Assembly (NCBI GenBank): GCA_032622095.1
Contig: CP136067.1
Coordinates: forward strand, 123,229,030-123,293,029
Reading direction: 5' to 3'
DNA length: 64,000 nucleotides
Source of the DNA: Siphonodentalium dalli
Lineage: Eukaryota; Mollusca; Scaphopoda; Gadilida; Siphonodentaliidae
Part shown: positions 1,131-60,345 of the stretch, piece after piece
Layout of the letters: each line of letters starts with the position of its first letter
Position numbering within the stretch: position 1 is the stretch's first letter
Notes under the pieces: generated by a model
What the model was told of the DNA's origin: nothing
Database searches by the model: none
What the model saw: the letters and a program-made list of their open reading frames with translations, nothing else
Position numbers and translations under genes: made by a program

Positions 1131-3699
1131 TTATATTATGAGAACTGGGAACTAGAAACTGGGATTGGTCTGGGAACTAGTAACGGAATTCATGGAATTT
1201 ATGTAAGGGCAGATATGAAGCTACTCACAAACTCACAAACAACCTTCAACGGCATTACAGCACAATAAATTGGGTTGATACAGTGCAATGCTAATATGGG
1301 TGAATCTGTGGGTTTTTTTTTTAATAAGAATTAAAAGATTATTTAGCTGGTTTTGAATTAGATGATATATACCGTACCACACACCAATGCAAACTGTATG
1401 TACTCTGTATATGTAGACATCAGAGGCTACATAGGTGAAGCTGTACCTCCCTGATGTTACTTGTAACAATCTTAGTCGACGAATCTTAATGCGTCATAAC
1501 GTACGGAATTATACCTGCTAAGTTAATGGCACCTAATCGTATCGTTGTCTCCTAAAATTTTGTGGACCGAACAATGAAGAGCATTTTTTGGATAATTCAT
1601 GTTTCCGATGGGTGGGAAAGTAGAGTGGGAACCGTGGATATAATCTAGGAATCTGGTACCGATATATACGGCGCGGCCGATAGTTGTGTGGTTTAGAATA
1701 ATTCAAGTGTCCGATGGGTGGTCGAGTTGGATTGTCTTCATCTAGAAATGATACACTGATATGACAGTCGCAAATCATATTAAATAAAAGGTCGACCGAC
1801 CACAATGTCCCTGGAGACGGTAGCTAACTGAAGGATTGGATATGTCCGGAATAAATGTCATCATCCGGAAACCTCAAATGTTGAAAATCAAGAAAAATCG
1901 TCAAACTAGGGGCCATAACTGCGGTAGAAAAGATCGGATAAGTCTGGTTTTCGAACTCGTTCAAAATATTTTTTAAAAACAGCTCTTACGCAAAACATTG
2001 TTAAAATCGGTAATATTTGTTCAAGTTATTGCGCTAACGAGCTTAGAAAAGTCGGCAAAAATGGCAAGAACTCGACAAAAATTGTTCCAACCAAACTCAG
2101 AATTGCAGGTTCCAACGATGTTTAATATCTGTGCCAAATTTTAAAAAATGACTGGAAAATGACGGAATATGTACACAGGCTCGGGATAAAGTTGGGTCCT
2201 AGGATGTATCATGCTATTTCAAAAATGTTTTCTATTAAATATGTATGGCAGTGTGCGTTTTAGTCATGGTTCGGACGATGAACCAATTTCTTTATGATAG
2301 ATGCCAAGATTAATCAATTAATTTGCAATTGGGTTAAAGGGAGGTAAAAGCTATTCTGCATCATAAGTTTCAAGATCTATCCAAGTAGACCCACGGAGCG
2401 TCGATAAACCTAGCGGTATTTTCAATTAGGAGATTCATTTCAACAGAACATTGTGTGTCAGTATCTAAAGAGTGAGTTTTAATCACCTCTCCAATTCTGT
2501 TCGCAGGCGACCACAACATGCAACCAGTCTCATAAGATTAATATATGGATTTCCAGAATAACAGGTGCGCCTTAGGTGGTAGAAAGCCTTTTGTATTTAT
2601 CACATTGAGTGCTTCTTTCAACGGTTTACATTTAAACGTCAGAATCCACTTCCTGCTGAAACTTTGACGAGCGACACAGACATGCCAATCGATATAGGTA
2701 ACGCTGGGCATGTAGTGACAAGGCTGAAATCTAGCTACAGTCTTATAAATGATGCCACGTACACAGAATGACAATGCTTTCATGAAATTCCTATCCGATT
2801 GATTTAAAAATATTACAATACAAATTGGCATTGTCTTGGAGAATGACTATATACATAATTATATTGCATATTTTGGTTATAAATGTTGGAATCGTTGTCC
2901 GACTTAAGTTGGCTTAATATCAGGCACAAATCAATTGCTAGTTTTCCGGGTGACATCCTGTCTGAATGTAAACAAGAAGTCAAGACTTTTATAGTATTAG
3001 TGTATACTTAATGCAGATATAAACAATTAAAAATACCGTATACATGAAGATGTTGTCCGGGTGGGATGAGGTGTGTTGACAATTAATTTGGAAATGCCGC
3101 GCCGCCTCGTACATGTACTATAGGCTATAGTCCCTGGTTTGGCCAATGGGTCGATAGTCGGTGTGACTATACAGAGCGTTTAGGATCGCTGATCTCTTCA
3201 TGGTATACCTGCCAGTGTCTTGGGTTCTGGGACTTCTCTTCCCGATATCGTGACGCCGTATCGTTTATACCACTATATAGACATTGCCGAAAATCGCCAC
3301 CATCTGCTCCTCTGGTATCTAAACAATTAAATCGACAATATGGATAGAGAAACCCCAGATCCATCAGGACCTAAAACTCATACGTATTTTCAACAACAGA
3401 CTGGGAGATGTTACAAAAAACAAAGAAATGCTTTTGAAAACCGTTTCGCAGCCCATAAACATGATTACGTAGCTAGAAGCATGGCGGCCTCCCGGGAATC
3501 CTTGCATGTTCATGCACGCCCACTTGGTGGGCGTCTATAGGACAGGGACGCAACCATATAACCCTTTCCAAATTTTCGATAATTGGGCTGAAGTCGTGCA
3601 CGGAGCTCAACATTGCAATTTGTGTTGCTAAATCGGCTGCGTTGCCCGAACCATGGCAGTCACAAGGGAATCCTTCCACGTATATATGGTCGTTATATA
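1131..3699. other. Intergenic stretch with no recognised feature
   Basis: Only short reading frames occur, none with a recognisable motif. A short phrase (ATAATTCA, then TCCGATGGGTGG) appears twice at about 1592 and 1698, suggesting an old local duplication. Confidence 0.5.
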
Positions 3700-4255
3700 T
3701 ATTTGTGCATTAGATTAGACGCCTTCAATCATAAACAATCATTTTATAGAACTGGAAGTGGAATTACGAACACAAATCTGCGATAAGAAATTCTGTAAGA
3801 TGGTTGGGTGTGGGCTGGGGGTGGGGTATCGAATAACTTTATTCTCAATTCTTTGATGTCATATGAGTTTGTTATTTTGTGCATAAGATTAGATAATCCT
3901 TCAATCAAAAACAATCATTCTTAGAACTGGAATTGCGAACAAATATCTTCTGAATTGGGTGGGGTGGCGAATAACTTTATTCTTCAAACTTGGGGTGGCG
4001 AATAACATTAGTCTTTAAACTCGGACGTAGATAGTTTCTAATTTTTTTATTTGATTAGACGATCCTTCATTCATAAACAATCATTTTATAGAACTGGAAG
4101 TTGAATTGCGAATAAAAATCTGCGATCTGAAATTATGTATTGGTTGGTGGGTTGGCGGGGTGGTGAATAACTTTATTCTTAATACTTGGATGTCAGATGA
4201 GTTTATTATGCTGTACATTAGATTAGTCGATCCTTCAATCACACACAATAGACAA
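3700..4255. repeat. Tandem array of ~165-180-bp units (about 3.3 copies)
   Basis: Each unit begins with TTAGAC or TTAGAT plus CCTTCAATCATAAACAATCA, then a GAACTGGAA phrase, a G-rich GGTTGGGTG stretch and GAATAACTTTATTCT. Starts lie near 3711, 3890, 4054 and 4221. The second unit carries an extra partial duplication of the G-rich phrase. No coding signal. Confidence 0.75.
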
Positions 4256-5012
4256 GAAACAATAAACAAATGTGTTCGTTACAACTTGTTCTATCTAGTT
4301 ACTTAACCCACAACAGCGGTTCTGGGGTTAGGACAACAAATTGCGAATGGACGGACGGATAGTTATACAGATCTCATAATCTGTCTATATAAACATACAT
4401 GTAAACACACCAACTTTTGTCTTTTCGGATAAAGCATCTTGCGGAAAACCACAAACAAAGTGGTGAACAGCACGTGAAACTCGCGTCGAGAGACATGCCC
4501 TTTGTCAGATTTGTTAAAACGCAGAATACGAATGGATTAGTGGTCCTTGAGCGATACTTGTTTCTCAATGAATACATTCCAAGAGCCTGCACGCGTTCGC
4601 GATAATTTATGGCGTGTCAATAAGCGTTTTATCGGCCTACATATTGTTCCGATTGTTAACAAGGTAGTTTGACTGCATGTTCATACCACCGAATATAGTT
4701 ATCAATTAAATGACAACTGAACGACAAGATGCGCTCTTTGACCACCAATGTAGGTCTAAACCAGGTTTAAAGTCGGAGGTTTAAACTGGATATTATGACT
4801 CCGGCCTATATGTTCAAACATAAAACCCAACATCATAATTTTGCATATATACATAATAACTGCTAATATACAATGTATATGCATACGTAAAAAATGGAGC
4901 ACATAACAAATACTGCTCAGTTGTATGTATTTGATTGTATATATCGAGTATAACATGTCATACAAGTGGGTTTATTCATAGGCCATGTTAAGTGATACAT
5001 GTTTATCTGGCT

Positions 5013-5014
<2 letters not shown>
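4256..5014. other. Unassigned intergenic sequence
   Basis: No coding motif, inverted repeat or tandem repeat recognised. Short open frames on both strands overlap one another and look like chance. Confidence 0.5.

Positions 5015-5105
<91 letters not shown>
5015..5105. repeat. (TA)n microsatellite, ~45 copies
   Basis: An uninterrupted TA dinucleotide run of 91 bp. It opens artificial frames that would encode alternating Tyr-Ile on both strands; these are not genes. Confidence 0.99.
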
Positions 5106-5107
<2 letters not shown>

Positions 5108-5447
5108 CATGAACCACGGATACCGACCAAACATTTGGTAAAACATTTTGTCGCCATCAAATTGTTTCCATCAAATTGCCGTTCGATTCAGGGATGTGAG
5201 AAGGGAGGGGTACACACGCTAATACAAGTACTTATAATTTATTTGCACATGACAATGGTCCGGTTTTAGTCTGAACATGTCATACCGTTACTTGCAGACT
5301 TTAAGTTGTGAACGTATTGTCTGTATGTGTATGTAGCCTTAACGATATGAGTAGAGGCAACTTGAGCCTCACTGCCACGATCACCTATATTGACTGGCAA
5401 GTGTCACTTTTTACCAATCCAGCAGGAAGAGAACTTTTAATGTTTAA
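5106..5447. other. Unassigned intergenic sequence
   Basis: Nothing recognised between the TA tract and the direct duplication that follows. Confidence 0.5.
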
Positions 5448-6323
5448 TTGAAAAACTTTGAATGAGTAACTCGACACGACAAACACAAAGGGCGCTTACT
5501 ATCTCCAAGACACAATTGTTGTGTTGTGATGTTGTAGATCGCTCATATGAGGTTGGTGGCCTTTTGTTGTCGCTCGATTATCGTGATAGGTCAGATTTGG
5601 AGAGGGGTCCAAAATTAGCCTTTAGTTTATCAAACAACGTTGTATTGAAATTAAATTTCTATGGGAAATACCATAATGCCTATCGAAGCTCTCCAGGTCT
5701 ACCTTGATAATGACTTTGCTTAGAATAAACTAGAACAATAAACCGTTAAATTTGCGAAACACAATGACAATTCAATTTTCTAGAAGGATGTAGCCTTTAT
5801 GTCTTTTGCAAAGAAACTGGCTGATATTGACCACTTTTACACACTAATTGGTTCATTATTCTAACATCCGATCCAAGACTAACAACTCACAAACTCTAAA
5901 ATATTTTAAAAAAACGATGAATGAGTTACTAAACACGACAAGCACAAAGGGCGTTTACTGTCCAAGACAGACCTGCTGTTTTGTGATGTTGTATATGTCT
6001 CTTATGAGACTGGTGCCCTTTTTGTCGCTGGATTATCGTGAGAGATCAGAATTGGAGGGGTCCATAATTAGCGATTGGTTTATCAAACAACGTTCTATTG
6101 ACATTAACGTTCTATAGGAAAGGCCATAGTACTCATAGAAGCTCTCCAGATCTACTTGGAAAATTGCTTTGTCTGGAATAGACTAGAAGATAAAACGATG
6201 AAATTTGCGCACAATGGCATTCAAATTTCGGGAAGAATGTAGGCTTACGTCTTTTGCAAAGAAACTGGCCAATATTGACCACTTTTACAAACTAATTGGT
6301 TGATCGTTCTAACGTCCGAACCA
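5448..6323. repeat. Direct duplication of a ~430-bp unit
   Basis: Copy 1 is about 5448-5877 and copy 2 about 5908-6323. Landmarks in the same order in both are AACACAAAGGGCG or its close match, TTGTCGCT.GATTATCGTGA, TTTATCAAACAACGTT, GAAGCTCTCCAG and TCTTTTGCAAAGAAACTGGC followed by ATTGACCACTTTTACA. Many substitutions show the duplication is old. No coding motif. Confidence 0.85.
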
Positions 6324-6651
6324 GTTATTCATGAACTATAACACATTTGACGAATATGGCACTGCATGAGCATCCATGTATGCATTTCCAATGGCATAGC
6401 GTCCAATTAGAACAATAACATAAAACGGATTTAGTGGTAAGCTAATATATATGTCGGAAGTTACTTCAATGTTCATTAAATATTATGATTATGTATATAT
6501 ATCCACAGGTTTATAATTATGATGACTAGTACACTTGCTTGAATACATAATGCTATCATGAGAATGAGTATCGATGAGCATGCCATGCACAATCGATAGC
6601 AACATCCAGTAAATTCGCCTCTTATCGTATTATCAAGACCTCATTTGAACG
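6324..6651. other. Unassigned spacer
   Basis: AT-rich sequence between the duplication and the LINE remnant. No feature seen. Confidence 0.5.
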
Positions 6652-6967
6652 AGAAAGTTACCTATCAATAACAAACCACCGAGTCGTGCAAAGCATCCTT
6701 CTCTTCCGAACGAGGAACCACAGACTCCCAATAGAATATGGCACGTGGACCAATGCCCCATATTCGGATAGATTATATGCCCTCGGCAACTCAGAAATAG
6801 GCGACGAGTACCATGTCATCCTTAAATGTATTGAACCCCCAAGACATACGCGTACAATACCTGGGACCATACTATTACCGGAGACCAAACGCTAACAAGT
6901 TAGCAGCACTATTCAATAACCACAACAGAAGAATTACCAAGAATCTCTCAGTTTTTATAAAAAAAGG
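6652..6967 (+). pseudogene. LINE (non-LTR retrotransposon) 3'-terminal coding remnant
   Basis: Translation gives FRTRNHRLPIEYGTW, then DRLYALGNSEIGDEYHV and LKC. This is the C-terminal pattern of many LINE reverse-transcriptase proteins (FRTxNHRLPIExGxW...C..C...GDExHxLxxCP), with the first zinc-binding cysteine replaced. After one frameshift near 6858 the frame resumes as YYYRRPNANKLAALF, then LSVFIKK and a stop at about 6966, matching the usual YYxRPNxxKLxxLF...FI ending. Everything upstream of this last ~100 codons is missing, as expected for 5'-truncated LINEs. The clade cannot be fixed by eye. Confidence 0.75.
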
Positions 6968-7761
6968 TCATTGATATATTTCGGAACTCTTGAGACTACA
7001 TTTTCGGACAAACAAGTAACCCCCACCCCCCCTTCAAAATATACCGTTATAATATACTTGTTTCTTCCACATGTACCAACATTTTATGAAGAAGGACCCC
7101 AACACCAATATAATAGTTTATGGCTGCAGATGCGCTTATTTGATAAGCACAACAAGTAATACAATCTCATTCCTCTTGAGGATTAATCACTTAAACCATT
7201 CAAAATCGATATCCATTGACCGAACACGCAACCATTACGCCAAAATTAATAACAATAACCTTATATATCTATCAGACAAAATATATATATAAAAGAAGCA
7301 TATTTCCCTTCCCGCGTTCTCTCTCCATTCTCTATCTATATACCTTGTCTTCCACTCTATATTATCTCTCTTTCTACGTCTGTCTTACATATAATGTTTG
7401 TGTTCTATTGAAATAGTATTCAACTATCCTTTCCCAGTATTCAGTCAGTCGAATTTTTCAAAGCAATCAAACAGAAACAAAAGGCCCATTGTCTATTTAA
7501 AAAAACTTTATGTCGTTATCGCGATATATAACTTGAACAAACGTCGACCGATTTGATGCATAGTTGATAAACGGATTTTTCATAGCAACATCTCGGTCGT
7601 TTTCGCAAAGCGGATGTTTTACCTGAGATATGGATTTTAAATTGTGTACTTGAGTAATCCCAGGGCGAAAACTTTAAAGCACTTCAACTGAACTGATCCC
7701 TGTTCTACGACAATATCTTGAAATAAATAAAAACATCGATGCTCAACTGTTGTTAAATATA
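6968..7761. other. Unassigned AT-rich intergenic sequence
   Basis: Directly follows the LINE remnant and may include its 3' untranslated tail. A pyrimidine-rich stretch lies at about 7301-7385. No gene recognised. Confidence 0.45.

Positions 7762-7792
<31 letters not shown>
7762..7792. repeat. (ATT)n microsatellite
   Basis: About ten uninterrupted ATT units. Confidence 0.97.
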
Positions 7793-7954
7793 GGCGTACA
7801 TGCGTCCTATTACCATACTGTTGGGGATAGCATTTTGAATCTACCCATATATAAAATTTATATGTTCTTACAAGTATATGACCCAATTAAAATAGATGCA
7901 CAGCGAACAGTTTATATGAGGTTGCTGGTCATTAGCAATACATAATGGATAGAG

Positions 7955-8125
7955 TATGGCAAAAAACAGGTGATTACACCAAAATGGTTGCCATGCCAAC
8001 GGTGTACGTTATTCGGATCATATCCAAAGTGATATATAATTGTGTGATATACATGTGTGCTAACTGCGATGCTTTTAACATAACATTGACGATTGTGTCC
8101 TCTTTCCACCCAACTAATGGTGTGG
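7955..8125. repeat. Diverged dispersed repeat, copy 1
   Basis: Shares a series of phrases in order with 9960-10135: AC.AAAATGGTTGCCATG, ATATCCAAA.TG, TACATG.GTG, GCTTTTAACATAA and GATTTTGTC- or GATTGTGTC-like ends, then CC.CCC.ACTA. Similarity is weak but collinear, so this is probably an old repeat family of unknown type. Confidence 0.45.
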
Positions 8126-8743
8126 CCATGGTCTATCGGGAAGAGCGATTTCTAATTTTAAGGGTCGCCAATTGGCCCGGTCACATGTTTCGTAAAATCT
8201 CTCACACAAGTAATAATCAGCCTATGGTAATATCACATGAAGTGATAAACACACTTGACCTTTCATAGTCACCTGGACTCTTGAGATCAGTGCTGGCGGT
8301 TCGTGTTGGAGAATGTATGCATACAAGTATTATTATATAACTATATCCACCAACAAGTCCACCGTTCTCACTAAAATAGTTCATATAGGATCATTTTCCA
8401 GAATTCTCAGAAACCATATATTGTTGCTATGGTAACGCCATTTTTTGAGGCTACTAATCGATAAGAAGTTTATCAACAATGGTTTCCAATGTCTCCAGTA
8501 TATGGGATTTACGATTTACTACATTGCCCAAAATCCCCAATTTTGTTTACGAAACCCATTTTTTATACAAATGACAGGCTACTATGAAGGAAGTTGGAGT
8601 GTGACATGGACCGATCTTCCTGGAGCATCCAAAGGTTGCCAAGAACTATTGCGAAGTGGTTGCAAGAATGGGTGCAAAACCAAGTGTAAATTCTCGAGGG
8701 CATCATTACGCTGTACTGCTCTATGCAGTTGCAATTGCAAATA

Positions 8744-8899
8744 CAGTAATGCCCTAAGTAATCGACCCTTAACCACATCAGAATTATGGGTAATTTTCAG
8801 GATTTAGTCGGAAATAAATATTCATATTTTCCGACTAAATCCTGAAAATTACCCATAATTCTGCTGTGGTTAAGATGTCGATTACTTAGGGCATTACTG
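8744..8899. mobile_element. Palindromic MITE, CAGTAATGCCC family, copy 1
   Basis: The sequence starts with CAGTAATGCCCTAAGTAATC and ends with its reverse complement, and the arms stay complementary for about 75 bp, including AATTATGGGTAATTTTCAGG. It is flanked by TA on both sides (8742-8743 and 8900-8901), consistent with TA-targeting elements of the Tc1/mariner type. There is no coding capacity. Related copies lie at 39752-39964 and 40074-40417. Confidence 0.9.
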
Positions 8900-10465
8900 T
8901 AAGTGTTGCCAACAGTGACATGTATGCAAATTTTTCCAACTCTTTAGGGTGCGTTCACACAACTAGCAGAGTTGACTGGCGATTTGTCATGAATTCTTCA
9001 TACATGACTATCCATTGCACATTCTTGAATGTCACTTATCGCAGAATGAGTGTCTTCAAATGTTTTATCCCATATTGGAGCGGCGAAATGCCACGAGTTA
9101 TTGCACGATTGATTCTCATAATATATTATAATATTTTAGCACACTTCAGATGTATAACAACTATATAGGGAATTACACATATCTCACGATATTGCTATTG
9201 CAAATGTAAACAATTAATATACCTTGTCGCACATAATTTGCACCTACGCTCGTAATAAAAACATTTGCTTACCTCTATTTGGAAGAATTATGGTTAATAT
9301 CATAAATATGTAAACCTTGCGGTACTTGTATGTTGCGCATATAATACCACAATGATTAGCTGCTTGTCAAATTGTGAGTAAGTGTAATTATAGCTGCACA
9401 AAGGTAATCGCGTAGCTCCATAGCAACGGTTGCCCAGCAGTTTTGTACCAGACCAATATTGTCCACACACACTCGCTAAAATGATATGATATAAAGTTAA
9501 CGCGAAAGATTGTCATAATCAACTTTCAGATAGTTTTATATCATAGAAATGCTTCTCGTGTCATTGTAACCATCAATTATAGTAATCAAAACAAACAACC
9601 CATTGTTTTTTTTTGCATTATATTTACGCTATTCCATCATCTTCTAGCCTATACTTGTTGTTTTGCAATCTTTAGAATTGTTATATATATACAGAGTGAT
9701 TTATCAGTTTATATTTTCTTGTCAAAGTACATTTTATAATAAAAACTGTACACACATCTCAATAAAATGTTGATACACGCAGCCAATAATAGGGGCTTTC
9801 AAACAAATGGCGGCCATTTTATCCGCCAGTTTGATTCTACCCAACTATAACGGACACATGAGTCAATGGATATATAGCCTGATCCCTTTTCAGTACAAGT
9901 ACATAAAACATTGTTTTTCGTTCAGAAACTGAGTCATAACGATGCATATTTGTTGGGATTGAGAAAAAAACAAGATTTGTTGTCAAAACGGTTGCCATGG
10001 CAACCATGGGCATTCTCCAGCTTGGCATGATATCCAAAATGTCTTATTTTTATATGTAGTACATGCGTGTCCAGTTTGGTGCTTTTACCATAAAATGCAC
10101 GATTTTGTCATCTATCCGCCCCACTATATGGGTTTACTGGAAACACATACACATTCAAAGTACATGGGACTGCATGTAGTTTCAAATAATAGTTAATATG
10201 TTTTCAGCGAAGTTAGAAATTCAACCGAACACGTTTGTGTCACATATTATTAAAAATTTAGTGTGTATCAACGATTCGCAATATTTAGGAACATAAAGAC
10301 CCAAAATGTGTTTTCTCCGTTACCACGCCCACTGTAATGTATGTGTGTCGCATATCACAAACGCCACATCAATATTTTCCACATGTTTTGTTTTCGAAAA
10401 CGTACATATCCCCACATAAGAAATTGGCCCATTTCGTCTGTCTATACACCATATAGAGTGATATA
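8900..10465. other. Unassigned intergenic sequence before the foldback element
   Basis: Contains copy 2 of the weak dispersed repeat at about 9960-10135. No coding motif. Confidence 0.45.
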
Positions 10466-12345
10466 GTTAGGGAGCCCGCATATGTTCTATTTACACTTTT
10501 GCGTACAAAAGGTTTGACCCCCTAAAGTTGGTACCAATAATGGAACATTCTGAAAACCCGATTTCTTAAGTTGCGCATTCCTGGGGTTTAGGGGCCGCTG
10601 AACCCCAAAAAGTGCCAAAAATCACTTCTATTTACACTTCTGCGTACATCGATGAATTTTGGTTTGATGATACTCCTAAGTGTACTGATTAAGAAAACAC
10701 AACTTAAGAAAGGGTTTTTCCTGGGGATTTCAGATAAGAAAGGGGGTCCCATGCTGAACCCCAAAACGTGATTTTTCCCTTTTTTTTACACTTTCGCGTA
10801 CATCCATAAGTTTTGGTCTCAAAGTACTTTGATATATACTAATTATAAAAACACAACTTAAGAAGCAACTTTTCCTGGGGTTTTAAGTCAAGAAGGGGGT
10901 CATCGGGTCACCCCTCAAAACGTAAAAAATCACTTTTATTTACATGATTGCATTCGTCCAACGTGTGTGTATGTGCGCACACCCCTGGAACGTTGCACTA
11001 TTACAACCAATACATCCCTAAATCGATACGATCAACTTACGAAATATATATTCATGTCGTTTTCTGATAATAACGAGACTTGTACCCCCCCCCCCCTCCA
11101 CAACCCGATCCATTTTCTAGAACTATAAGTGAGCCAGTTTTATGAAAATTATAGCGGGAAAATCTTGTAAAATGTATATAAATGTATATATTTTCGTGAA
11201 GCTAAGACATAATGACACTTTTTTGGGCCAAAATTGAAAATCACCATCCAAGATGGCCGCCAAAATGGCCACCGGAAGTTGAAAATATGACATTTTTTCA
11301 CAAATATCTTCTAGATCAATTCATGCTGTTTGGAACTGGTTGAATAATGCAACTTTATTTTGTGTTTTATATATTAAATGATCATTGGAGCAATTAAATA
11401 TGCAATTATTGGGGTCCTAACCCCTTCCGATCCCTCAAAAATTCGATTTTACAGAACGCAGTACAAAATTTAAAAAAAAATCACAATTGGGATTCTAGTC
11501 ATATTTCAACAAGAAATGAAAAGGAACATTGTAATGTAAGTGAGGCATATCATTACCTATGAATATATATGGAACCATAAATCTTACCTTGGCTCAAAAT
11601 GGCTGCGAAAATGGCCGCCAAAATATGGAAAATGGTAAATATTGCCCCAGGGTGTCCTGCAATCGCGTACAAGTTGTGGTTGATGTACACAATTGGCTAA
11701 TCTGTTTTCTATACATCGCATACTAACATGTCTGATGCACCATGGATCATTTTTACTATTGTCACCACTGACATCACCAGAAATATTGGATTTTTCTCTC
11801 ACAAACTTGACATAAATATCGGCAAAATTCACTTTTCAGGGTTGGACCATTTGTTCAAGTAACATGTAACTATCTTTGGATTGAAAGGTGTTTATTGTTT
11901 TGGTCTATCTTAAATGTGTCACACTGCGGTGTTTATAGACTAAATTGCTCAAGATGGCTTCCAAAATGGCAACCAAATTTGTTAAAAGTTAAAAGTTAAC
12001 GTATCCCGAACATTATTCTCTGCGTTATCCGAAAAAGGTGGCAAATTGTGACTCACTTGGTTATTGTACGTGTTAGTTACAATGTAATTAACTGACAACT
12101 ACGTTCTATTATGTTTGTCCCAGTTCCGTATGGGGCATGACAAATTCATTTTAAAGTTGCAGTATGGAATTTTGCGGAGAACCTCTTTTGTGATTCTGGC
12201 CATATTATTGAAAGGAAATGGGCCGAACTTTGAGACGGAACTGAGATGAACCATGATATGTGGGTATTCTGACCCATTATGATAAAAAATTATCAACTGG
12301 ATGCACGGTGGAAGCCAAGATGGCAGCCAGGGAGTTACTCTATGA
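10466..12345 (+). repeat. Foldback element, left inverted arm
   Basis: Complementary to 14694-16570. Landmarks inside, from the outer end: GTACAAAAGGTTTGACCCCC, a C tract at about 11085, AAATGGCCGCCAAAATATGG near 11609, and CCGTATGGGGCATGACAAAT near 12126. Each has its complement at the mirror position of the right arm. Confidence 0.92.
10486..10945. repeat. Three ~150-bp subrepeats at the outer end of the left arm
   Basis: TTTACACTTTTGCGTAC-like starts occur at about 10489, 10630 and 10786. Each is followed by AACTTAAGAA, CCTGGGG and an ACCCC.AAAACGT..AATCACTT phrase. The mirror set is at about 16090-16550. Subterminal tandem repeats of this kind are typical of foldback-type ends. Confidence 0.8.
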
Positions 12346-14693
12346 TAATAGATGAGGATAATAGGTAGTAGATAATACAGGGAGTTATTGTATGGTCATG
12401 AATGATGTGTGGTTATATATGGAGTGCCCTGTTGGTAACGGTGGGACGTATATTTATATATGTTGTGGATGTGTTATCATTGGTGGTGTATGGGGAGTAG
12501 ATTTATTATCATGGATGGCGTGTATGAGTATGGCAAGTATGGAACTTATGAGTGGTCGTATGTGCGGATATTGGTATATCTGGAAGGGCACGCCATTGGT
12601 GGTGTGCATATATATACCTGGATTGACTCTATGGTCATGGGTATGGCGAATAGGTATACACGTAGTGGCTGTATGGTCCATGGTGAGGTGAATATGTATA
12701 CAATGAGTGACTGTATGATCGTGAATGTAGTGAATATGTATACATACAGTGACTATATGTGTCGGTGTAGGTGTATACCTGGTGTTCAAGCATGGTGAAT
12801 CGTGGCTGTATCGTCATTTGTGGTATGTACGGGTATAACCAAGTATGGCTGTATGATCAGGTGTACTAGTACATGTACGTGTATAAAGTGGGTGACTATG
12901 TTGTCATTTGTGTGGTGGTGTTTATGGAGTGACTGGAGTAATGGGTGGGTTGTACATGTGTACATTGGGTGGCTATCGCTTTCCACAATAACTCAATGAT
13001 ATGTTAATCAATAGAGAGGTCATGTCATATCGTGGAAAGCGATAGCCACCCATTATCACACAGTCATTACATATATACATAAACACCACAGCCATTACAA
13101 TATAGTGACCCACTGAATACATATACACCTGACCCATGACCACGGATGACCATACAGCCACGCGTCACAGTGCAGGCACACCGGGTATACTCCAAAACAT
13201 GACCCATAACCATATAGTCACTCATTGTATACCCATTCATCTCACCATTGGCCACAAGGTCATCCCCTGTATACCTATTCTCCAAACGCATGGTCAAATA
13301 GTCAATCAATATATACATCAACACCACAACAATGACCATAAAGTCACTCCGGTATACATATGCACATCACCAATGGCCATATAGCCACTCGCTTCATACA
13401 CATACCCTCACCCATGTTACCTGGTATATTCCTTCACCTGACCTGTGGCCATATAGTCACCCCGTGTGTACCTATTCAAAACATTCATACACGATCATGG
13501 TCAATCCTTGTATATATATTCACCTCAACATTGGCCATGTCAATCCCTGTATCCCTATTTGTCACACCATTGCCGAATAGCCACTCAAGATATACTAATA
13601 CACACAGCCATGTCAGTATAGTCACTCCATGTATGCATATGCACCTCATCCATGGCCATATAGCCACTCGCTATATACACATATCCCTCGCCCATGACAA
13701 TAAAGCAACATGTGTGTGTACTGGTATAACATACACATGACGATACCGAGACGAGTCACCAAACAAGAACACCATGTACATGTATACTCATACGCCTGTC
13801 ACCCCCTGTATAGCTGTTCATTACATTTATGATCAGACTGTCACTACTTGTATACCTACATGTACTCATATCACCATTAACCATACAGTCACTACCTGTA
13901 TACCTATTCGACACAAATAGTCATATAACCACTCGATATACATATGCAGCCCACCCTAGACCATAGATTCACTCCAGGTATACATGTAAACCTCAGTAAT
14001 GAGTAATGGCCATTCAGCCCTTCCAGATATACAAAAAATATACGACCACTCAAACAATCCATACTTGCATATACACCTCACACATGACAATTCAGCAATT
14101 CACTGTATAAGCATACACGCCATCCATGATAATACAACTAAGCCCTATACACCCACCAATGATAATACATCCACGAGATATATAAATATACATCCCACCG
14201 TTACCACAAGGACACTCCCTATGTACCCACACGCTCGATAATGTCCACCCAGCTTAATCCAGGTATTCATATTCAATCATGACCGTACAGTCATTCCATG
14301 TATACCTATACACATTACCCGTAACCATAAAATCACTACCTATTTATCCACACACCCCATCCATGATCATACATACAACACATGTACATCCCACCCATGA
14401 CCTTACAGTCACTCCATATATACATAATCAACACATAGATGACCATGTAGCTATATCCATACACCACACCAATGACCGGGTGCACCCGTACTGGATATAC
14501 ACAATCATACACCATACAGTCACTACATGCATACCGATTCACCCCACACCTGACCATGACCTCTCCCTGTATACATAGATGCATCTTACCATGGACAACT
14601 CACTCATAACCATATAGTCACTCCGTGTATACCTACTCACATCAGTCATGGCATACAATAACTCCCTGTATACATATTCACCTCACATATGAT
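12346..14693. repeat. Minisatellite core, ~42-bp unit, with an internal orientation switch
   Basis: To the right of 13053 the unit reads approximately ATGACCATATAGTCACTCC followed by CTGTATACCTATTCACCTC, repeated about 39 times with heavy divergence and spacing of 41-43 bp. To the left of 12967 the same unit is present in reverse complement, about 15 times. A perfect inverted pair of GGGTGGCTATCGCTTTCCA (12968-12986 and 13033-13051) marks the turn. Because 42 is divisible by three, several frames stay open for 60-126 codons; these carry no recognisable domain and are by-products. Confidence 0.88.
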
Positions 14694-16570
14694 CACAGAG
14701 TAACTCCCTGGCTACGGTCTTGGCATCCACACTGTATCCTGTTGACATTTTTTTTTAACATAATGGACCAGAATAGCCAAAGATTATGGTCCATCTCAGT
14801 TCTGTCTCAATGTTCTGCCTATTTTCTTTCAATAAATATGGCCAAAATCACAAAAGAGGTTCTCGGCAAAATTACATACTTTAAAATGAATTTGTCATGC
14901 CCCATACGGAACTGGGACAACTGGGAATAGAACATGTAGTTGTTAGTTAATTAACTAACACGTGTAATAACCAAGTGAGTTACAATTTGCTACCTTTTCG
15001 GATAATGCAGAGAATGTTCGGGATATATGTAAAAAAAAATTTGGTTGCCATTTTGGAAGCCATCTTGAGTAATTTGGTCTATAAACACCGTAGTGTGACA
15101 CATTTATGATAGACCAAAACAATAAACACCTTTCAATCCAAAGATAGTTATATTTTACGTGAAAAAATGGTCCAAACCTGAAAACTGAATTTTTGCCAAT
15201 ATTTATGTCAAGTTTGTGAGAGAAAAGTCCAATAATTTTGACGATGTCAGTGGTGAAAATAGTAACAATTAACCATGGTGCATCAGACATGTTAGTATTC
15301 AATGTATATAATGCAGAATAGCCAATTGTGTACATCAACACAACTTGTAAGCGATTGCAGGACACGCTGGTGTAATATTTACCATTTTCCATATTTTGGC
15401 GGCCATTTTGGCAGCCATTTTGAGCCAAAGTAAGAATTTTGGTTCCAGTAATTTGGAATATTCATAGGTAATGATATGCCTCACTTACATTACAAAGTTC
15501 TGTTCATTTCTTGTTGAAATATGACTAGAATCCCAATTGTGATTTTTTTGGGAAATTTTATACCGCATTCTGTACAATCGAATTTTTGAGGGATCGGAAG
15601 GGGTTAGGACCCCAATAATTGCATATTTAATTGCTCCAATGATCAGTTAATATACAAAACACAAAATAAAGTTGCATTACTCAAACAGTTCCAAACAGCA
15701 TGAATTGATCTAGAAGATTTTTGTGAAAAAATGTCATATTTTCAACTTCTGGCGGCCATTTTGGTGGCCATCTTGGATGGTGAGTTTCAATTATGGCCCA
15801 AAAAAGTGTCATTATATCTTATCTTCACGAAAATATATACATTTGTATACATTTTACAAGATTTTCCAGCTATAATTTTCATAAACTGGCTCACTTATAG
15901 TTCTAGAAAATGGATCGGGTTGTGGGGGGGGGGGGGGGGGGGGGGGTAACAAGTCTCGTTCTTATCAAAAGAAGACATGAATATATATTTCTTAAGTTGA
16001 TCGTATCGATTTAGGGATGTATTGGTTGTAATAGTGCAACGTTCCAGGGGTGTACGCACATACACACACGTTGGACAAATGCAATCATGTAAATAAAAGT
16101 GATTTTTTACGTTTTATGGGGTGACCCGATAACCCCCTTCTTAACTTAAAACCCCAGGAAAAGTTGCTTCTTAAGTTGTGTTTTTATAATTAGTATATAT
16201 CAAAGTACTTTGAGACCAAAAATTATGGATGTACGCGAAAGTGTAAAAAAAAGTGAACAATCACGTTTTGGGGTTCAGCATGGGACCCCCTTTCTTATCT
16301 GAAATCCCCAGGAAAAACCCTTTCTTAAGTTGTGTTTTCTTAATCAGTACACTTAGGAGTATCATCAAACCAAAATTCATCGATGTACGCGGAAGTGTAA
16401 ATAGAAGTGATTTTTGGCATTTTTTGGGGTTCAGCGGCCCCTAAACCCCAGGAATGCGCAACTTAAGAAATCGGTTTTTCAGAATGTTCCATTATTGGTA
16501 CCAACTTTAGGGGGTCAAACCTTTTGTACGCAAAAGTGTAAATTTATAGAACATATGCGGGCTCCCCAAC
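14694..16570 (-). repeat. Foldback element, right inverted arm
   Basis: Mirror image of the left arm. A G tract of about 22 bases (15926-15947) faces a shorter C tract in the left arm. A 157-codon minus-strand frame at 14955-15428 is broken by stops at the matching place in the left arm, which argues against a selected protein. Confidence 0.92.
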
Positions 16571-16572
16571 TA

Positions 16573-16719
16573 TCAGTTGAATATCGTCCCGTTTCTTTTA
16601 GGTTCGTTTCATTACATTGCTTTTCGCCTTCCGGAAAATAAAAGTAACCACTAGAAAGCACGTGAAGGAAAATATTTCATGTCCGAATTGTGCTGAGAAT
16701 CCGTTGTTGCTGTTGAAGG
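16573..16719 (+). promoter_or_regulatory. Proximal promoter / 5' leader of the Caprin gene
   Basis: This 147-bp strip is all that separates the foldback element from the start codon. It holds an ETS-like palindrome CTTCCGGAAA (16628-16637) and a perfect E-box CACGTG (16659-16664), both common in TATA-less promoters of broadly expressed genes. No TATA box is evident. A pyrimidine tract followed by AG (16597-16611) could instead be a splice acceptor if a 5' untranslated exon lies further upstream. The transcription start cannot be placed from sequence alone. Confidence 0.45.
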
Positions 16720-18892: not shown

Positions 18893-19084
18893 TACCCCGC
18901 TGGACAAAACAAGTGTCCAATGCCACCGCGGTGTACTTGCCGTTCGGCCGCGGTGTCACTTTGTGGAACCGCGGCTGAGCACCGCGGGCCGAACGGCAAG
19001 TACACCGCGGGCCGAACGGCAAGTACACCGCGGCCGAACGGCAAGTACACCGGGGTTAGATTCCTGGTTTGTATCGTCTTTTTT
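18893..19084. mobile_element. GC-rich MITE, CCCCGCTGG family, 3'-truncated copy
   Basis: Starts with TA then CCCCGCTGGACAAAACAAG, the same end as the complete copy at 27914. It is followed by tandem GAACGGCAAGTACACCGCGG-type units and the phrase CTGGTTTGTATCGTC shared with the complete copy. The right terminal repeat is missing. Base composition is sharply higher in GC than the AT-rich surroundings. Confidence 0.85.
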
Positions 19085-24539: not shown

Positions 24540-24735
24540 CAAGAACGGCAAGTACACCGTGGTCGAACGGCAACTACACCGCGGCCGAACGGCAAGTACA
24601 CCGCGGCTGAACGGCAAGTACTCCGCGGCCGAACTGCAGTCAGCCGGTGGAGCCGCGGTGTTGTTGCAGTTCGGTCGCGGTGGCAACGCAAACCGCACCG
24701 CGGTTAAGTGGACACTTGTTTTGTCCAGCGGGGTA
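24540..24735. mobile_element. GC-rich MITE, CCCCGCTGG family, 5'-truncated copy
   Basis: Four GAACGGCAAGTACACCGCGG-like units (from 24544) are followed by CCGGTGGAGCCGCGGTG and the right terminal repeat CTTGTTTTGTCCAGCGGGG ending in TA at 24734-24735. The left terminal repeat is absent. Confidence 0.85.
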
Positions 24736-26087: not shown

Positions 26088-27623
26088 ATGGCTACTTTTG
26101 TACCAGACAATATAATGGCCAGCGATTCGGAGACAGCACTATTAAACAGTGTATCAGACTAGGGTTGGGCGGTATTGACGTTTTTAAAAACCGCGATTTT
26201 TCCAAAATAATACCGCGATATACGGCTTTATTGAATATTATTTTACTATTGAAAATTACCACGTAAAATCAAATTTTAAATGAGTGATATAACACTCCGG
26301 GTTTTCGTTATAAGGGATGTAAAGTTGTACACACTATCGCCAGGCAGTAATTTATACCCTATTCTCACAATAGCATGTGCCCATTCTATAAAGTTCCTGC
26401 ATTCTGGAATACGAAACAACATTGAGTGAATTACAGGCGCAAGTTATCCTGATTACTCCATTGTTTACATATCAGCATGCGATGCACATTCCCGTTACGT
26501 CATAGCTAAGCACGTACTCATAGGTTGACAGAGGACCTAGTAGAATTGGGCCAAGATGGTTCATTCTGGGCTGTGTGCAGTTTATCATACACAATGAATT
26601 ACGGAACATTTTTAATTAACTTTTGAACACGGGAAAGATAATCATAATTAATCATTGAACAGAATTGCAGTTCGTGAGTTTATGTGTCCAAATTCTTGGC
26701 AAGGAACACCAACGCGTCGACTCTAGAAGGAATGAGACATGTTCGTTCCATGAGTCAAGTTTTAAGATATAATTGAACGACAAATACCGCCGAGTCGTGA
26801 GTCAGAAAGTTTGGACGAAGTATCGCTTGTGACGTTACACAGCTACCAGGTTGGATTCGGAAGAAGATACTCCATCGCTCTACTTCAGCCCAAAATACAA
26901 CCATTGCGTCATTGGTTACAATAAATACAATGGAGACTTAAATTGTGAGCGACCGATAAAGGCTGCTTTCAATCAGCGGTCCTCTAAAGTATTCAACTTA
27001 GTATTGGATTGTAATTTTAAACCGTCTTTTGAGGTGATAAAATTGCGGTTGCGATATATTGAATGTTATTTTACACACGGTTTCAATACGGTTTTTCTTT
27101 TCCAAACCGACTATAGTCAATATATTGAAATATCGCCCAGCCCTATATCAGACACAACTGTCTTGTCTTTCACAACGGACACCAACAGACCGAAAAAACG
27201 CTCGCGCACGGTAGAGAAACCGAGCAGATACCGGTACACCAAAGCCAGCATCACAGATGCGAATATCTCTACATACAGAACCATATGCAATCTCACAACA
27301 AAGAAAATCAGACTTGCTCTCCAACGGGAATTCCTCGAATCTTGCATTTCCCACGGAGTCAGTCCAAGAGGACTATCCGTCAATCTACCCAAACCTAAGG
27401 GGCTCATATGTATCTATCTACTCACATGCAACAAATGCAACTCCCAATACGTAGGGGAGACTATAAGCGTAAATTTAGAACACGCCTATCAGAACACCTG
27501 GCCGATATTACACATAACAGAGATACGCCGGTAGCATTCCACTTCAATCTACCAGACCCCGATACAAGTTACCTACGGCATCGGGTCATTGAGATAATGA
27601 ACTGTGACCCGGAGAAACTGTGA
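26088..27623 (+). pseudogene. GIY-YIG endonuclease reading frame of a Penelope-like element, split by a hAT
   Basis: The frame starts at the ATG at 26088, runs 24 codons to 26159, is interrupted by the hAT at 26160-27145, and resumes in the same frame at 27154. It then contains a basic KKRSR segment, a REFLESCISHGVSPRGLSV segment like that before the nuclease in related retroelements, and CIYLLTCNKCNSQYVGET, the IY...YVG core of GIY-YIG nucleases. One frameshift near 27470 follows. In the new frame FRTRLSEH, DTPVAFHFN and a stop at 27621-27623 complete the usual R, H and N positions. No reverse transcriptase is seen here. The 227-codon frame starting at 26851 is an accident of hAT sequence fused to this frame. 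Confidence 0.75.
26160..27145. mobile_element. hAT-type non-autonomous element, 986 bp, perfect target duplication
   Basis: Flanked by the perfect 8-bp duplication TATCAGAC (26152-26159 and 27146-27153). Ends are TAGGGTTGGGCGGTAT and the complement of TAGGGCTGGGCGATAT. No transposase is seen. Deleting it restores a continuous frame in the surrounding GIY-YIG sequence. Confidence 0.92.
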
Positions 27624-27913: not shown

Positions 27914-28293
27914 TACCCCGCTGGACAAAACAAGTGTCCATTGGCATCGCGGTGTATTTGCCGTTCGGCCCGCGGTGTCAGAGTTTGTAACTGCAGTTGA
28001 GCACCGCGGCCGAACGGCAAGTACACCGTGGCCCAACAGCAACTACACTGCGGCCGGAAGGCAACTACACCGCAGCCGAACGGCATGTACACCGTGGTTA
28101 GATTTCTGGTTTGTATCGTCTTTTTTCAGTTTAATGAACGTACACCGTGGCAACTACACCATGGCCGAACGGCAAGTACACCGCGGCCCAACTGTAGTTA
28201 GCCGGTGGAGCCGCGGTGTAGTTGCATTTCAGCCGCGGTGGCAACGCTAACTGCACCGCGGTTAGGTGGACACTTGTTTTGTCAAGCAGGGTA
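27914..28293. mobile_element. GC-rich MITE, CCCCGCTGG family, complete copy
   Basis: Ends are CCCCGCTGGACAAAACAAG at left and its near-complement GTTTTGTCAAGCAGGG at right, flanked by TA. The interior is built from GAACGGCAAGTACACCGCGG-like units in direct and inverted orientation, including CCGCGGTG blocks. No coding capacity. Confidence 0.9.
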
Positions 28294-39751: not shown

Positions 39752-39964
39752 ATGTAATGCACTAAGTAATTGACTCCTTAACCACAGCAGAATTATGTTT
39801 AACTTTTCAGGATTTAGACAGAAATATGGCTTGTTGTGATTCATCGGAAAGCTCTCGCCGAGAGCTTTCCGATGAATGGCAACAAGCCATATTTCTGACT
39901 AAATCCTGAAAAGTTACCCATAATTCTGCTGTGGTTAAGGAGTCGATTACTTAGGGCATTACTG
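39752..39964. mobile_element. Palindromic MITE, CAGTAATGCCC family, copy 2
   Basis: A near-perfect hairpin of two ~105-bp arms with the centre CGGAAAGCTCTCGCCGAGAGCTTTCCG and end GGGCATTACTG. It contains the family phrases TTAACCACAGCAGAATTATG and AATATGGCTTGTTG. Confidence 0.92.
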
Positions 39965-40073
39965 TACCGTATATGTACCGGTAATTGTCAGGAGACTGGC
40001 CGGAAAATTAGGGATGTCTCGCAGAACTTTATGGATTCAAAGGACTGATTTTCTCACTTTTAACTTTTCCAGG

Positions 40074-40417
40074 GATGCCCTAAATAATCGACTCCTCAAT
40101 GAGAGCTTTCTGATGTTCAAATGGCAACAAGCCATACAGTAATGCCCTAAGTAATTGACTCTTTAACCACAGCAGAATTATGGGTAACTTTTCAGGATTT
40201 AGTTGGAAATATGGCTTGTTGCCATTCATCGGAAAGCTCTCAGTGAGAGATGAATGGCAACAAGCCATATTTCCGAATAATCCTGAAAAATTACCCATAA
40301 TTCTGCTGTGGTTAAAAAGTCGATTACTTAGGGCATTACTGTATTTCCGACTAAATCCTGAAAAGTTACCCATAATTCTGCTGCGGTTAAGGAGTCAATT
40401 ATTTAGGGCATTACTGT
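40074..40417. mobile_element. Palindromic MITE cluster, CAGTAATGCCC family, next to exon 3
   Basis: 40137-40341 is a complete hairpin flanked by TA. 40074-40134 is an internally deleted left arm and 40343-40417 an extra right arm. The last copy ends 37 bp before the exon 3 acceptor junction. Confidence 0.9.
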
Positions 40418-40454
40418 AATCAGGCTTGAGCGCTAAATTATTTGTTGTTTACAG

Positions 40455-40569: not shown

Positions 40570-40826
40570 TTAACCCTTCCATGACTTCAGCTTCCTGAAA
40601 TGTTGCGAAAACCCTGTACCAATGCATTCTCTTATATATGCGAGTCTCCCATGTAGGGAGCCATCATATAGAAGACAATACATTGGCCTAAAAATATTTA
40701 CCTTGACCATGTAAGCTAGTGCATTCTCTTATATATCGGGAGACTCGCATACATGTATATAAGATAATACACTGGCTCAGGATATTTAATGCTGCACCAG
40801 CACAGCTTTCATCACGAAAGGGTTAA
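40570..40826. mobile_element. TTAA-flanked hairpin MITE (TATATATGCGAG family), copy a
   Basis: Starts TTAACCCTTCCATGAC and ends CGAAAGGGTTAA. The interior holds two hairpins made of GCATTCTCTTATATATGCGA and its complement. A TTAA flank with CCCTT ends is the piggyBac signature; no transposase is present. Confidence 0.85.
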
Positions 40827-48133: not shown

Positions 48134-48199
48134 AGTAATCTAAGGGTTCATTTAGACAAAGCAATCTGTACACGCTTTCAAACCTTTTGCTATTTACAG

Positions 48200-48361
48200 T
48201 TCGATAAGTTCATGAAGAAACAGGCGAAACGTGATTGCAAAGAGCGGCAGTCATTTGAAATGAGGCGACATCGAGAGTTATTGACGATACAGTCTTTATT
48301 GGATAAGTTACAGTCAGAGGAAGTGCGGAATGACTTCATGACTGGCAAAGATGGAGCTGTG
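48200..48361 (+). CDS. caprin: Caprin homologue, coding exon 4 (residues 90-143)
   Basis: A 54-codon exon between a TGCTATTTACAG acceptor and a GTAAGT donor, phase 0 at both ends. It is rich in Lys, Arg, Glu and Gln and predicted helical: FDKFMKKQAKRDCKERQSFE, then TIQSLLDKLQSEEVRNDF and a Gly-Lys-Asp-Gly turn. It aligns with the vertebrate segment that ends LQYVLDKLGDDEVRTDLKQG. In vertebrate Caprin-1 the HR-1 region forms a helical homodimer; sequence alone does not show dimerisation here. Confidence 0.93.
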
Positions 48362-48411
48362 GTAAGTTGAAATAATTACATCCAAGCTTTGAAATAGCAT
48401 GTCTGTCATTT

Positions 48412-48792: not shown

Positions 48793-49655
48793 CTGGGTTC
48801 ACCATCATGACTGCTTTTAAAATATGGGCAAATGACATTTACATTTTCTATTCTAGAGTTATCCTTTATCTGGAATAATGGAATTGTCTGTTTTATGTCT
48901 CGCCCATAGGGTATCAAATCTGAATGAAATTGGTATGTATGCTCACCATCATGATTGATTTTAAAATAGGGGCAAATGATGTTAACATTTTCCATTCTAG
49001 TGTTATCCTTCTTTGTTGATCTGAAAATCATGTTTTTTTTCTTCTTTCCGGTTAGATAACTCAACCATGGGTTATCGGATCTGAATGAAATTGTTTTGGA
49101 GGTTCACCATCATGACTGATTTCAAAAGAATGGCAATTGACGTTCACGTTTTCCATTCCTGACTTATCCTTCTTCAGATCTGAATTAAATTTGGGATGGA
49201 GGTTCACCATCACGACTGCTTTCAGAAGAGTGCCCAATGACCTTTGTTGCATTTTTTTGCCTGAGTTATGGCCCTTCGTTCCTCAATTTTTTCCAATTTT
49301 GTTCCATCCGGCTTTATAACTGAAATAAATATGAACTGATTTCAAACATTTTTGGTATACATGTACAAGTTGTATGCCACACTGACTCAAATTAGTTAAT
49401 AAATCAGGTTTATCCCGATTTTTTTGGCCTGAGTTTGTCAATTTTTCAGAATTTTTGTCCGTCCATGCCTTCTGCTGGCGATTTTTAATCGTTACTTGTT
49501 CGAAAGTATTTGGGGTTCTACCTACCCATGTTTAAATTTTCACCGTGGTGCTATGCTAGCACTGCCTGTTCAAACTCTTTTTCACTTTATGCACCCCATC
49601 TAATTTGGTGCAAGTGAAGGTGTATATAGCAAACACCCTTTGATACAACCTCTTG
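48793..49655. repeat. TCCG-type element F: ~150-bp repeats filling intron 4
   Basis: GTTCACCATCATGACTG or a close match recurs near 48798, 48945, 49103 and 49202, each followed by AAAATA or AGAAT, CAAATGA, ACATTTTCCATTC and TTATCCTT. Toward the right are GTCCGTCCATGCC and GGTGTATATAGCAAACACC. No coding signal. Confidence 0.7.
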
Positions 49656-49687
49656 TTTCTGATAACATATTTCATTCTAATTCACAG

Positions 49688-49922
49688 GTCCTTACCGAGG
49701 AAAACTTGAATCAGCTCGATCAGTTGGAGAAAGCTTTGAAAACATCAAAAGATCCAGAAGTCAAATTTGAGTCCGTGCTGCAGACAACATCCGAACACAT
49801 TGTGTACATTCTTGATGGCCGAGAAAAGGATGTTTTCGGAACGTCGTACAAAGAACTCAAGGAACTTATCGATCTCATTAACAACTGTGGTTACTTCGAA
49901 AAAGTAGTCGAGATCAAGGAAG
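49688..49922 (+). CDS. caprin: Caprin homologue, coding exon 5 (residues 144-221)
   Basis: The longest exon in the window, 78 codons plus one base, from a TCTAATTCACAG acceptor to a GTAAAT donor (phase 1). It contains VLTEENLNQLDQLEKALK, HIVYILDGREKDVFGTSYKE and LINNCGYFEKVVEIKE. It aligns with vertebrate Caprin-1 LSEEELSLLDEF...LWDLLEGKEKPVCGTTYKVL...SNYFD, the end of the conserved N-terminal region. The LDGREK/GTSYK core makes the family assignment secure. The following intron is 8.7 kb because a 6.2-kb element was inserted. Confidence 0.95.
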
Positions 49923-50128
49923 GTAAATATACAAACTTTAGTGAGAACAATATTTTATTCTCAATTAGGCACATAAAGTGAATCACAATGTATAATAGAT
50001 AAAGAGTTCGTCTCAAATGATGAATTTGATACTCCGCAATCACCTGTGTTCCGATTCGTGGTCGATCGCCGAAGTACCGTTTGCTCCACTCCCCACTCTC
50101 TTAGCATGTAGCATGATAAATATGTGTA
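49923..50128 (+). other. Start of intron 5, unassigned
   Basis: No element recognised before H-G copy 3. Confidence 0.5.
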
Positions 50129-60020: not shown

Positions 60021-60080
60021 TTATCGTTGTCATAGCTGAATAAAACATTTCTGGGTTACCGTAATTATGTCTAAAATAGT

Positions 60081-60345
60081 TTAACCCTTTCATGACGAGA
60101 GCTGCGCTGGTGCAGTATTGAAGACCCTGTGCCAGTGATCATCTTATATATTGCGAGTCTCCCATAGGGAGCCTTGCATATATAAGAGAATGCACTGACT
60201 TGCAAGGTCAATGTTTTTAAATATTGTTAGGCCAATGCATTCTCTTATATATGCTATGCGCCCTATGGGCAACTCATATATGAGAGAATGCATTGGCACA
60301 TGGGATTCGCAAAATTTCAGCAAACTCCAGTCATGGAAGGGTTAA
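60081..60345. mobile_element. TTAA-flanked hairpin MITE, copy d
   Basis: Starts TTAACCCTTTCATGAC and ends GTCATGGAAGGGTTAA. It contains two AATGCATTCTCTTATATATG hairpins. Confidence 0.9.

Follow-up and report, generated by a model that had tools for sequence, protein, structure and literature searches.

A foldback-type mobile element with a mirrored minisatellite core, present in about 450 copies in the scaphopod Siphonodentalium dalli

Introduction

The stretch of DNA analysed here (the window) comprises 64,000 nucleotides of the scaphopod mollusc Siphonodentalium dalli (assembly GCA_032622095.1, contig CP136067.1, positions 123,229,030 to 123,293,029). Upstream of a Caprin gene it carries a long imperfect palindrome of 6109 bp (10464–16572) which is non-coding and is very probably one member of a non-autonomous, foldback-type family of DNA transposons of the cut-and-paste type, referred to here as family A. 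Family A is a mobile element with several hundred dispersed copies in the genome, about 450. Its ends carry a terminal TA which belongs to the element, its target duplication is 3 bp long, and its outer arm ends, which look younger than its middle, probably result from arm-to-arm copying. A sister family, B, has a similar body and other ends.

Results

Anatomy of the element

A sequence-only reading of the window had described a foldback element in front of Caprin, with complementary arms of ~1.88 kb, three subterminal repeats per arm, a 42-bp minisatellite that flips orientation (about 15 units to the left and 39 to the right) and a turn marked by a perfect 19-bp inverted pair. This anatomy is present at that place, in an element two bases longer at each end and with a perfect pair of 20 bp (GGGTGGCTATCGCTTTCCAC; coordinates in Table 1). 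The outermost arm block pairs 10489–11106 with 15926–16543 (618 nt, 96% complementary) and further blocks follow inward to ~12330/14720, the longer ones mostly 89–94% complementary; over 1823 columns the two arms are 93.3% identical. An inverted pair of such length is far beyond chance. The subterminal motif TTTACACTTTYGCGTACA occurs three times on each side (six matches with no more than 3 mismatches, against a shuffle maximum of 1). Within each arm its copies are spaced by 141 and 154 bp, and their distances from the near end of the element are 26, 167 and 321 bases on the left and 30, 171 and 325 on the right.

The core between the arms is a weak minisatellite (self-match 35–37%) whose 42-bp period is the strongest in 13040–14700 and second to its double, 84, in 12330–12975. 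GC skew passes from ~+0.5 to ~−0.45, switching at the turn (12967–13051). The two arrays measure roughly 640 bp (left) and 1660 bp (right), in agreement with the unit numbers given above. Since the left and right halves of the window copy align to each other in order, the flip in orientation is the axis of a single old inverted duplication, to which both halves belong; their difference in length, the left half being ~1 kb shorter, is likewise old and common to the copies read.

The longest open reading frame starting with ATG, GTG or TTG inside the element has 157 amino acids, and a Pfam search at E 0.1 with its two longest open reading frames gave no match. Long terminal inverted repeats with internal subrepeats, together with little or no coding sequence, place it in the foldback-type structural class.

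Copies of family A

The host assembly searched amounts to 2.23 Gb in 9 contigs. The 24-bp tip of family A has 931 exact matches in it (452 + 479) and the reversed control none. A search with the left arm gave 42 rows (best 40 of 5906 candidates scored), 33 of which, the window included, span the query fully or minus one base at 92–100%. Among the first 100 listed of the 931 tips, all on C1, are 35 convergent pairs and 30 singles, the pairs having a median length of 6049 bp (range 1166–10922). The arm is thus far from occurring only once, and the mobile family of many copies proposed from the sequence alone stands.

Twenty further copies, the best matches to the window arm, were fetched; all carry both ends. 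One of the resulting 21, L012, has a 3-kb internal duplication of the core and part of an arm (L012:163–9199, 9037 bp) and for this reason was excluded from the alignments, which hold the window copy and 19 others. Column mapping in these alignments starts at 10468, 2–3 bp off, with no material effect on the counts. Mean pairwise identity among the 20 aligned copies is 97.4% for the left arm, 96.4% for the right arm and 96.3% for the core, and the copies diverge from their own majority by 1.3–3.1%. The core is colinear in all 20 and pairwise 95–99.6% identical; deletions of at least 90 bp interrupt it in two of them, L010 (152 columns) and L011 (94 columns), and L013 and L014 have large deletions in the right arm. 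The earlier proposal that the family rearranges and that unequal exchange lengthens its centre is not supported by this near-constant length: rearrangement of A occurs but is uncommon in the sample (1/21, L012). Shorter forms exist among the convergent pairs, namely an internal deletion derivative of 1166 bp retaining the outer arms only (L030) and a pair of 1948 bp with the outer arms only plus an insert (L031). By eye, that insert (L031:408–1189) is made of ~30-bp repeats (TATGGTTATGAGCCTGGATGTCTCATTAGG).

In a tree of the 40 arms of the 20 copies, all left arms form one branch and all right arms another (support 100), with largely parallel subfamilies on both sides, which argues for common descent of the copies by copying. 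Tip branches as short as 0.1%, and the low divergence in general, point to recent activity. The window copy stays in one subfamily nearly throughout its length. The right arm of L011 departs from the parallel pattern: this copy is chimeric, nearest to the window group over most of columns 0–3999 and near no group after 4400. With a right arm that is close to no sampled subfamily and no 3-bp duplication (see below), L011 is likely an ectopic recombinant.

Ends and target duplication

TA stands at both junctions in 21/21 copies found by their arm sequence; the pairs L047/48, L030, L031 and ten later ones were chosen by a TA-containing pattern and are not counted in this respect. When the flanks were compared at offsets 0–6, a 3-bp identity was found just outside TA in 21/24 A copies (shuffled mean 2.6, maximum 10). 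It recurs in 5/5 further pairs, giving 26/29 A copies overall, and in family B in 3/5 pairs and in L029 (TAT/TAT, by eye), that is 4/6 copies. The 29 tallied duplications (26 A, 3 B) are 88.5% A+T.

One A copy, L022, sits in a repeat, and its joined flanks match two unoccupied relatives covering both sides (C1:29900862, 83%, query 2–220; C1:29448973, 82%, query 31–220). The unoccupied L071 and L072 read CAG-TAA-GCTCC; L022 reads CAG-TAA-[TAGTT...AACTA]-TAA-GCTCC. Five more relatives, covered mainly on the left side, have a single trinucleotide at the same place (GAA in three, CAA, GAT). The flank matches and the single trinucleotide of the unoccupied relatives together give a tip of the form TAGTYVGGGAGC and a duplication of 3 bp: TA is the first and last dinucleotide of the element itself, and the target duplication is 3 bp, AT-rich and outside TA. 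The earlier observation of TA at both ends therefore holds, and its use as a target duplication does not. Full copies and empty TA sites had been suggested as things to look for; 20 further copies with both ends and two related unoccupied sites were found, the latter holding a single TAA and not a TA target. A hunt for A copies with flanks in repeats on both sides found only L022, and the places looked at for A inserted into A, as a source of empty sites, were not nested. Members of the repeat family that L022 inserted into, others of which are the unoccupied sites, also lie in the window at 60073–60323 and 40580–40825.

Divergence of the two arms

In the consensus of the 20 copies, the left and right arms differ at 9/964 outer positions and 81/898 inner positions, with a change point at position 964 (log-likelihood gain 37, permutation maximum 8). 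Switches at 70 diagnostic sites (at least 80% consistent per arm) are few and scattered, and they reveal no long tract of exchange. Between the consensus sequences of the two subfamilies g1 and g2, the left and right arms diverge by 1.1% and 1.7%, respectively, over the outer 660 bp, by 2.7% and 4.7% over positions 661–964 and by 1.7% and 2.1% further inside. As the arms differ tenfold less in the outer 964 bp and subfamily divergence shows no such drop, we infer that in the ancestor of A one arm received its outer ~1 kb as a copy of the other's, with some later copying. Identical changes on both arms are confined to the outer 660 bp, in small numbers (three comparisons gave 2, 3 and 1 such sites there and none further in); sites changed on both arms in unlike ways between g1 and g2 number two at 661–964 and one inside.

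Family B

L028 is adjoined by a diverged relative (L029 with L032), which represents family B. Eight more B ends were read, seven starting with TAGTCCGGGAGCTAA and one with AAGTCCGGGAGCTAA, with TA in 7/8 (L034 reads AAGTCC). The 25-bp B tip has 735 exact matches assembly-wide (368 + 367; control 0), and 100 listed tips, on C1 and C2, include 25 pairs with a median of 5127 bp. A and B share a 12-bp tip of the frame TAGTYVGGGAGC. The one B copy that was read through has an inner arm 81–95% identical to that of A per 150-column window, and no convincing alignment was obtained between the outer 660 bp of A and the outer ~175 bp of B. This copy is palindromic about the same turn, with one mismatch per 20-mer, and has the same satellite; the cores of A and B differ in layout. 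A B copy holds an insert made of GGAGATATCTCC-like repeats (L029:2069–2805).

Because this one B copy has the same turn and satellite, the palindrome is older than the two families. At the 90 consensus differences between the arms of A (with arm cuts from the same 2–3-bp-off mapping), the B arms carry the left/right state at 43/39 and 39/37 sites, the rest being other or gap, and they mostly agree with each other; most of the arm divergence in A hence postdates the A/B split. The change point at 964 lies beyond the A/B junction near 660, which would fit a copied stretch reaching past the new end.

Search for a transposase and comparison with known elements

A tip of A followed by a different base and the subterminal motif was tried as the mark of an autonomous partner, and the six matches were all read as mutated A ends. 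Among six pieces from long C1 intervals, five hold A sequence, four of these with stretches lacking a long A match, and one (L043) is without a long A match.

PIF/Harbinger elements prefer TWA targets and CACTA/EnSpm elements have CACTA/G termini. In our data TAA or TTA make up only 7/29 duplications, and the ends of A read TAGTT...AACTA. The TA inside the element and the single TAA of the unoccupied relatives differ from the TA duplication of Tc1/mariner; 0/24 copies have a 7- or 8-bp match (which any match of 9 or 10 bp would include) at offsets 0–6, against the 8–10 bp of Mutator/FB, and the 7–8 bp target of P/Galileo was not found either. Tc4 and Tc6 of C. elegans are nearly all-palindrome, non-autonomous fold-back elements of ~1.6 kb with TNA or TA targets and no satellite core; family A is like them nearly all palindrome and non-autonomous, and unlike them has a satellite core. 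Duplications are given as 3 bp for Zator, 3–4 bp for AcademX and 0–4 bp for the Harbinger group (PMC10045372), and A fits Zator and AcademX in length, the only property compared. A duplication of 3 bp speaks against Mutator/FB, P/Galileo, hAT, piggyBac and Tc1/mariner; the candidates that remain are Zator, AcademX, CACTA or Harbinger-like sources, or an undescribed one.

The closest published parallels are Drosophila foldback elements. Tetris of D. virilis is non-autonomous, with arms of up to 1,735 bp and an inner tandem repeat of variable number, 8–10 bp target duplications and three structurally complete copies (PMC4079207). Family A resembles it in being non-autonomous, in its long arms, in the link between foldback and satellite and in that no autonomous partner was found; it differs in its 3-bp duplication, hundreds of ends and near-constant core, and in having the satellite as the centre of the palindrome (PMC4079207). 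Galileo, of the P superfamily, makes 7-bp duplications, and some of its copies are nearly complete and contain transposase sequence; its copies are reported to exchange sequence, to show growth of tandem repeats in one subfamily and to include chimeras whose duplications do not match, and its authors propose that ends are repaired using the arm of another copy (PMC3573991). Long, internally repetitive arms, sequence exchange and chimeric copies without matching duplications are common to Galileo and A, and the end copying suggested for A resembles that proposal, for another transposon. Duplications measure 3 bp here and 7 bp in Galileo, for which the portion of the report used describes no mirrored satellite core (PMC3573991). 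Literature on foldback elements with minisatellites, in molluscs, or on Tc4/Tc6 gave nothing matching beyond Tetris, which does not show the family to be unpublished or absent from repeat libraries.

Features and surroundings in the window

Table 1. Positions of the parts of the family A copy in the window
Feature	Position	Strand	Basis or remark
Whole element, family A copy	10464..16572		TAGTTAGGGAGCC ... GGCTCCCCAACTA; terminal motif at both end positions; other copies have the 3-bp duplication outside TA
Outside trinucleotide, left (ATA)	10461..10463		Mismatched to the right one; no intact 3-bp duplication here
Left terminal motif TAGTTAGGGAGC	10464..10475	+	Family B has the same frame TAGTYVGGGAGC
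Left arm	10464..12330	+	Arm pairing and 20-copy consensus
Subterminal repeat motif 1, left	10490..10507	+	TTTACACTTTYGCGTACA search
Subterminal repeat motif 2, left	10631..10648	+	TTTACACTTTYGCGTACA search
Subterminal repeat motif 3, left	10785..10802	+	TTTACACTTTYGCGTACA search
Minisatellite core (42 bp), left half, G-rich strand	12331..12966	+	Period, skew and array alignment
Turn, left 20-bp member of perfect inverted pair	12967..12986	+	GGGTGGCTATCGCTTTCCAC
Turn, right 20-bp member	13032..13051	-	GGGTGGCTATCGCTTTCCAC; B copy has both, 1 mismatch each
Minisatellite core, right half, C-rich strand	13052..14719	-	~1 kb longer than left half; period, skew and array alignment
Right arm	14720..16572	-	Reverse complement of left arm, 93% in window copy; arm pairing
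Subterminal repeat motif 3, right	16230..16247	-	TTTACACTTTYGCGTACA search
Subterminal repeat motif 2, right	16384..16401	-	TTTACACTTTYGCGTACA search
Subterminal repeat motif 1, right	16525..16542	-	TTTACACTTTYGCGTACA search
Right terminal motif TAGTTGGGGAGC	16561..16572	-	Terminal motif search
Outside trinucleotide, right (TCA)	16573..16575		Flank comparison

Motifs similar to AAGATGGCNGCC, which we take to resemble a YY1 site, recur ~every 350 bp in each arm (11250, 11608, 11951 and 12317; mirrored at 15055–15774), the window having 11 matches at no more than 1 mismatch where shuffling gave at most 3; a similar motif is found near a family B end.

Caprin lies on the + strand downstream of the element, with Caprin-1_dimer matches (PF18293) at 48134–48367 and 49604–49978. 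The ATG at 16720, 148 bp past the element, may be the start of a putative first Caprin coding exon; the 39-amino-acid piece starting there has no Pfam match. Similar GC-rich array units of 22–23 bp (CACCGCGGCCGAACGGCAAGTA and variants) occur in three separate places (18980–19052, 24543–24638, 28002–28094). A palindromic repeat family is present at 39754–39966, 40135–40418 and 8739–8901 and also beside L016 and L022; a stretch similar to it was seen by eye downstream of the DDE_3 match L061. An open stretch of 233 amino acids (26833–27531) has no Pfam match at E 0.01 and contains IYLLTCNKCNSQYVGET, which resembles the GIY-YIG part of Penelope elements. A match to the nuclear-receptor ligand domain at 60663–60971 is below cut-off (PF00104, E 0.0026) and is probably due to chance.

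Discussion

The arrangement that best explains these observations is an element whose two halves meet head to head at the 20-bp inverted pair, each half bearing TAGTYVGGGAGC as its terminal motif, the three subterminal repeats, ~1.2 kb of inner arm and the 42-bp minisatellite. A transposase made elsewhere and supplied in trans would bind the outer arms, with the three subterminal repeats as likely sites, and the 3-bp duplication would reflect its staggered cut on insertion. In the A lineage, the outer ~1 kb of one arm may have been copied onto the other, replacing older ends and leaving the inner arms to drift apart.

Several observations weigh against this explanation. The source of the transposase was not found in searches covering DDE_3 flanks and sampled long intervals: the end motif is absent at no more than 2 mismatches from the 3′ flanks (~600 bp each) of 20 of the 90 listed DDE_3 matches, and no transposase was recognised, by eye only, in the four intervals sampled (7.0, 7.2, 7.4 and 10.9 kb) out of six listed on C1 with lengths above 6.2 kb. 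Three A copies, the window copy itself (ATA/TCA), L011 and L013, are without the 3-bp match, as are 2/6 B copies. The unoccupied sites are related repeats (82–83%) and do not represent one locus seen in a second individual; the sample of 21, taken as the best matches to the window arm, leans to close kin; and for family B the data are a single copy read through and a number of ends.

The constant TA on both sides of 21/21 arm-found copies is what a foldback derivative mobilized by a TA-target transposase of the Tc1/mariner type would show, yet the 3-bp duplication outside TA (26/29 A, 4/6 B copies) and the two related unoccupied sites with a single TAA make this origin highly improbable; the DDE_3 3′ flanks examined, 20 out of 90 matches, also lack the motif. 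Nor is it at all probable, if slightly less remote, that the satellite is a rearranging one, lengthened at its centre in every copy by unequal exchange. The 3-kb internal duplication of L012 and the different core layouts of A and B are in keeping with such growth, but the 20 aligned copies have colinear cores, and the left and right arrays of the window copy align in order. A more serious competitor, though one we think unlikely, explains the copies lacking a duplication (window, L011, L013) as products of ectopic recombination, the window copy possibly marking a rearrangement breakpoint upstream of Caprin. All three lack the 3-bp match and L011 is chimeric; against this, the window copy belongs to one subfamily nearly throughout, and mutation or a small deletion could account for its flanks.

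The near equality of the outer arms might instead result from purifying selection for transposase binding and not from arm-to-arm copying. The three subterminal repeats are located in the outer part, where copy-to-copy divergence is lower (~2% against 2–6% elsewhere), and subfamily divergence is somewhat lower in the outer 660 bp than inside. Selection would nevertheless need to lower the outer rate tenfold, and the differences between g1 and g2 do not follow the tenfold gap between arms; furthermore, some outer changes are common to both arms, and the outer module of A cannot be aligned to that of B. We therefore regard selection as the doubtful alternative and copying between arms as the probable one. 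A broader and more tentative proposal, to which we give a little less than even weight, is that the palindromic body with its satellite core serves as a chassis on which ends are replaced: one arm would first have acquired a new A end, which the other then took over by copying, either inside a palindrome or from one palindrome to another, and the tips TAGTYVGGGAGC with their 3-bp duplication may be those of a superfamily not yet described.

The results also show that a constant TA at both junctions can pass for a target duplication; it was the comparison of copies with one another and with unoccupied relatives that exposed the 3-bp one. Links between long-armed foldback elements and satellite formation are known from Tetris, and links with inversions from Galileo. 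With hundreds of ends and a sister family having the same body and other ends, the S. dalli elements provide a countable record of arm drift and end replacement, which also covers copies that have lost the target duplication, one of them chimeric. If the chassis proposal is true, a non-coding element could in this way keep step with changing transposases.

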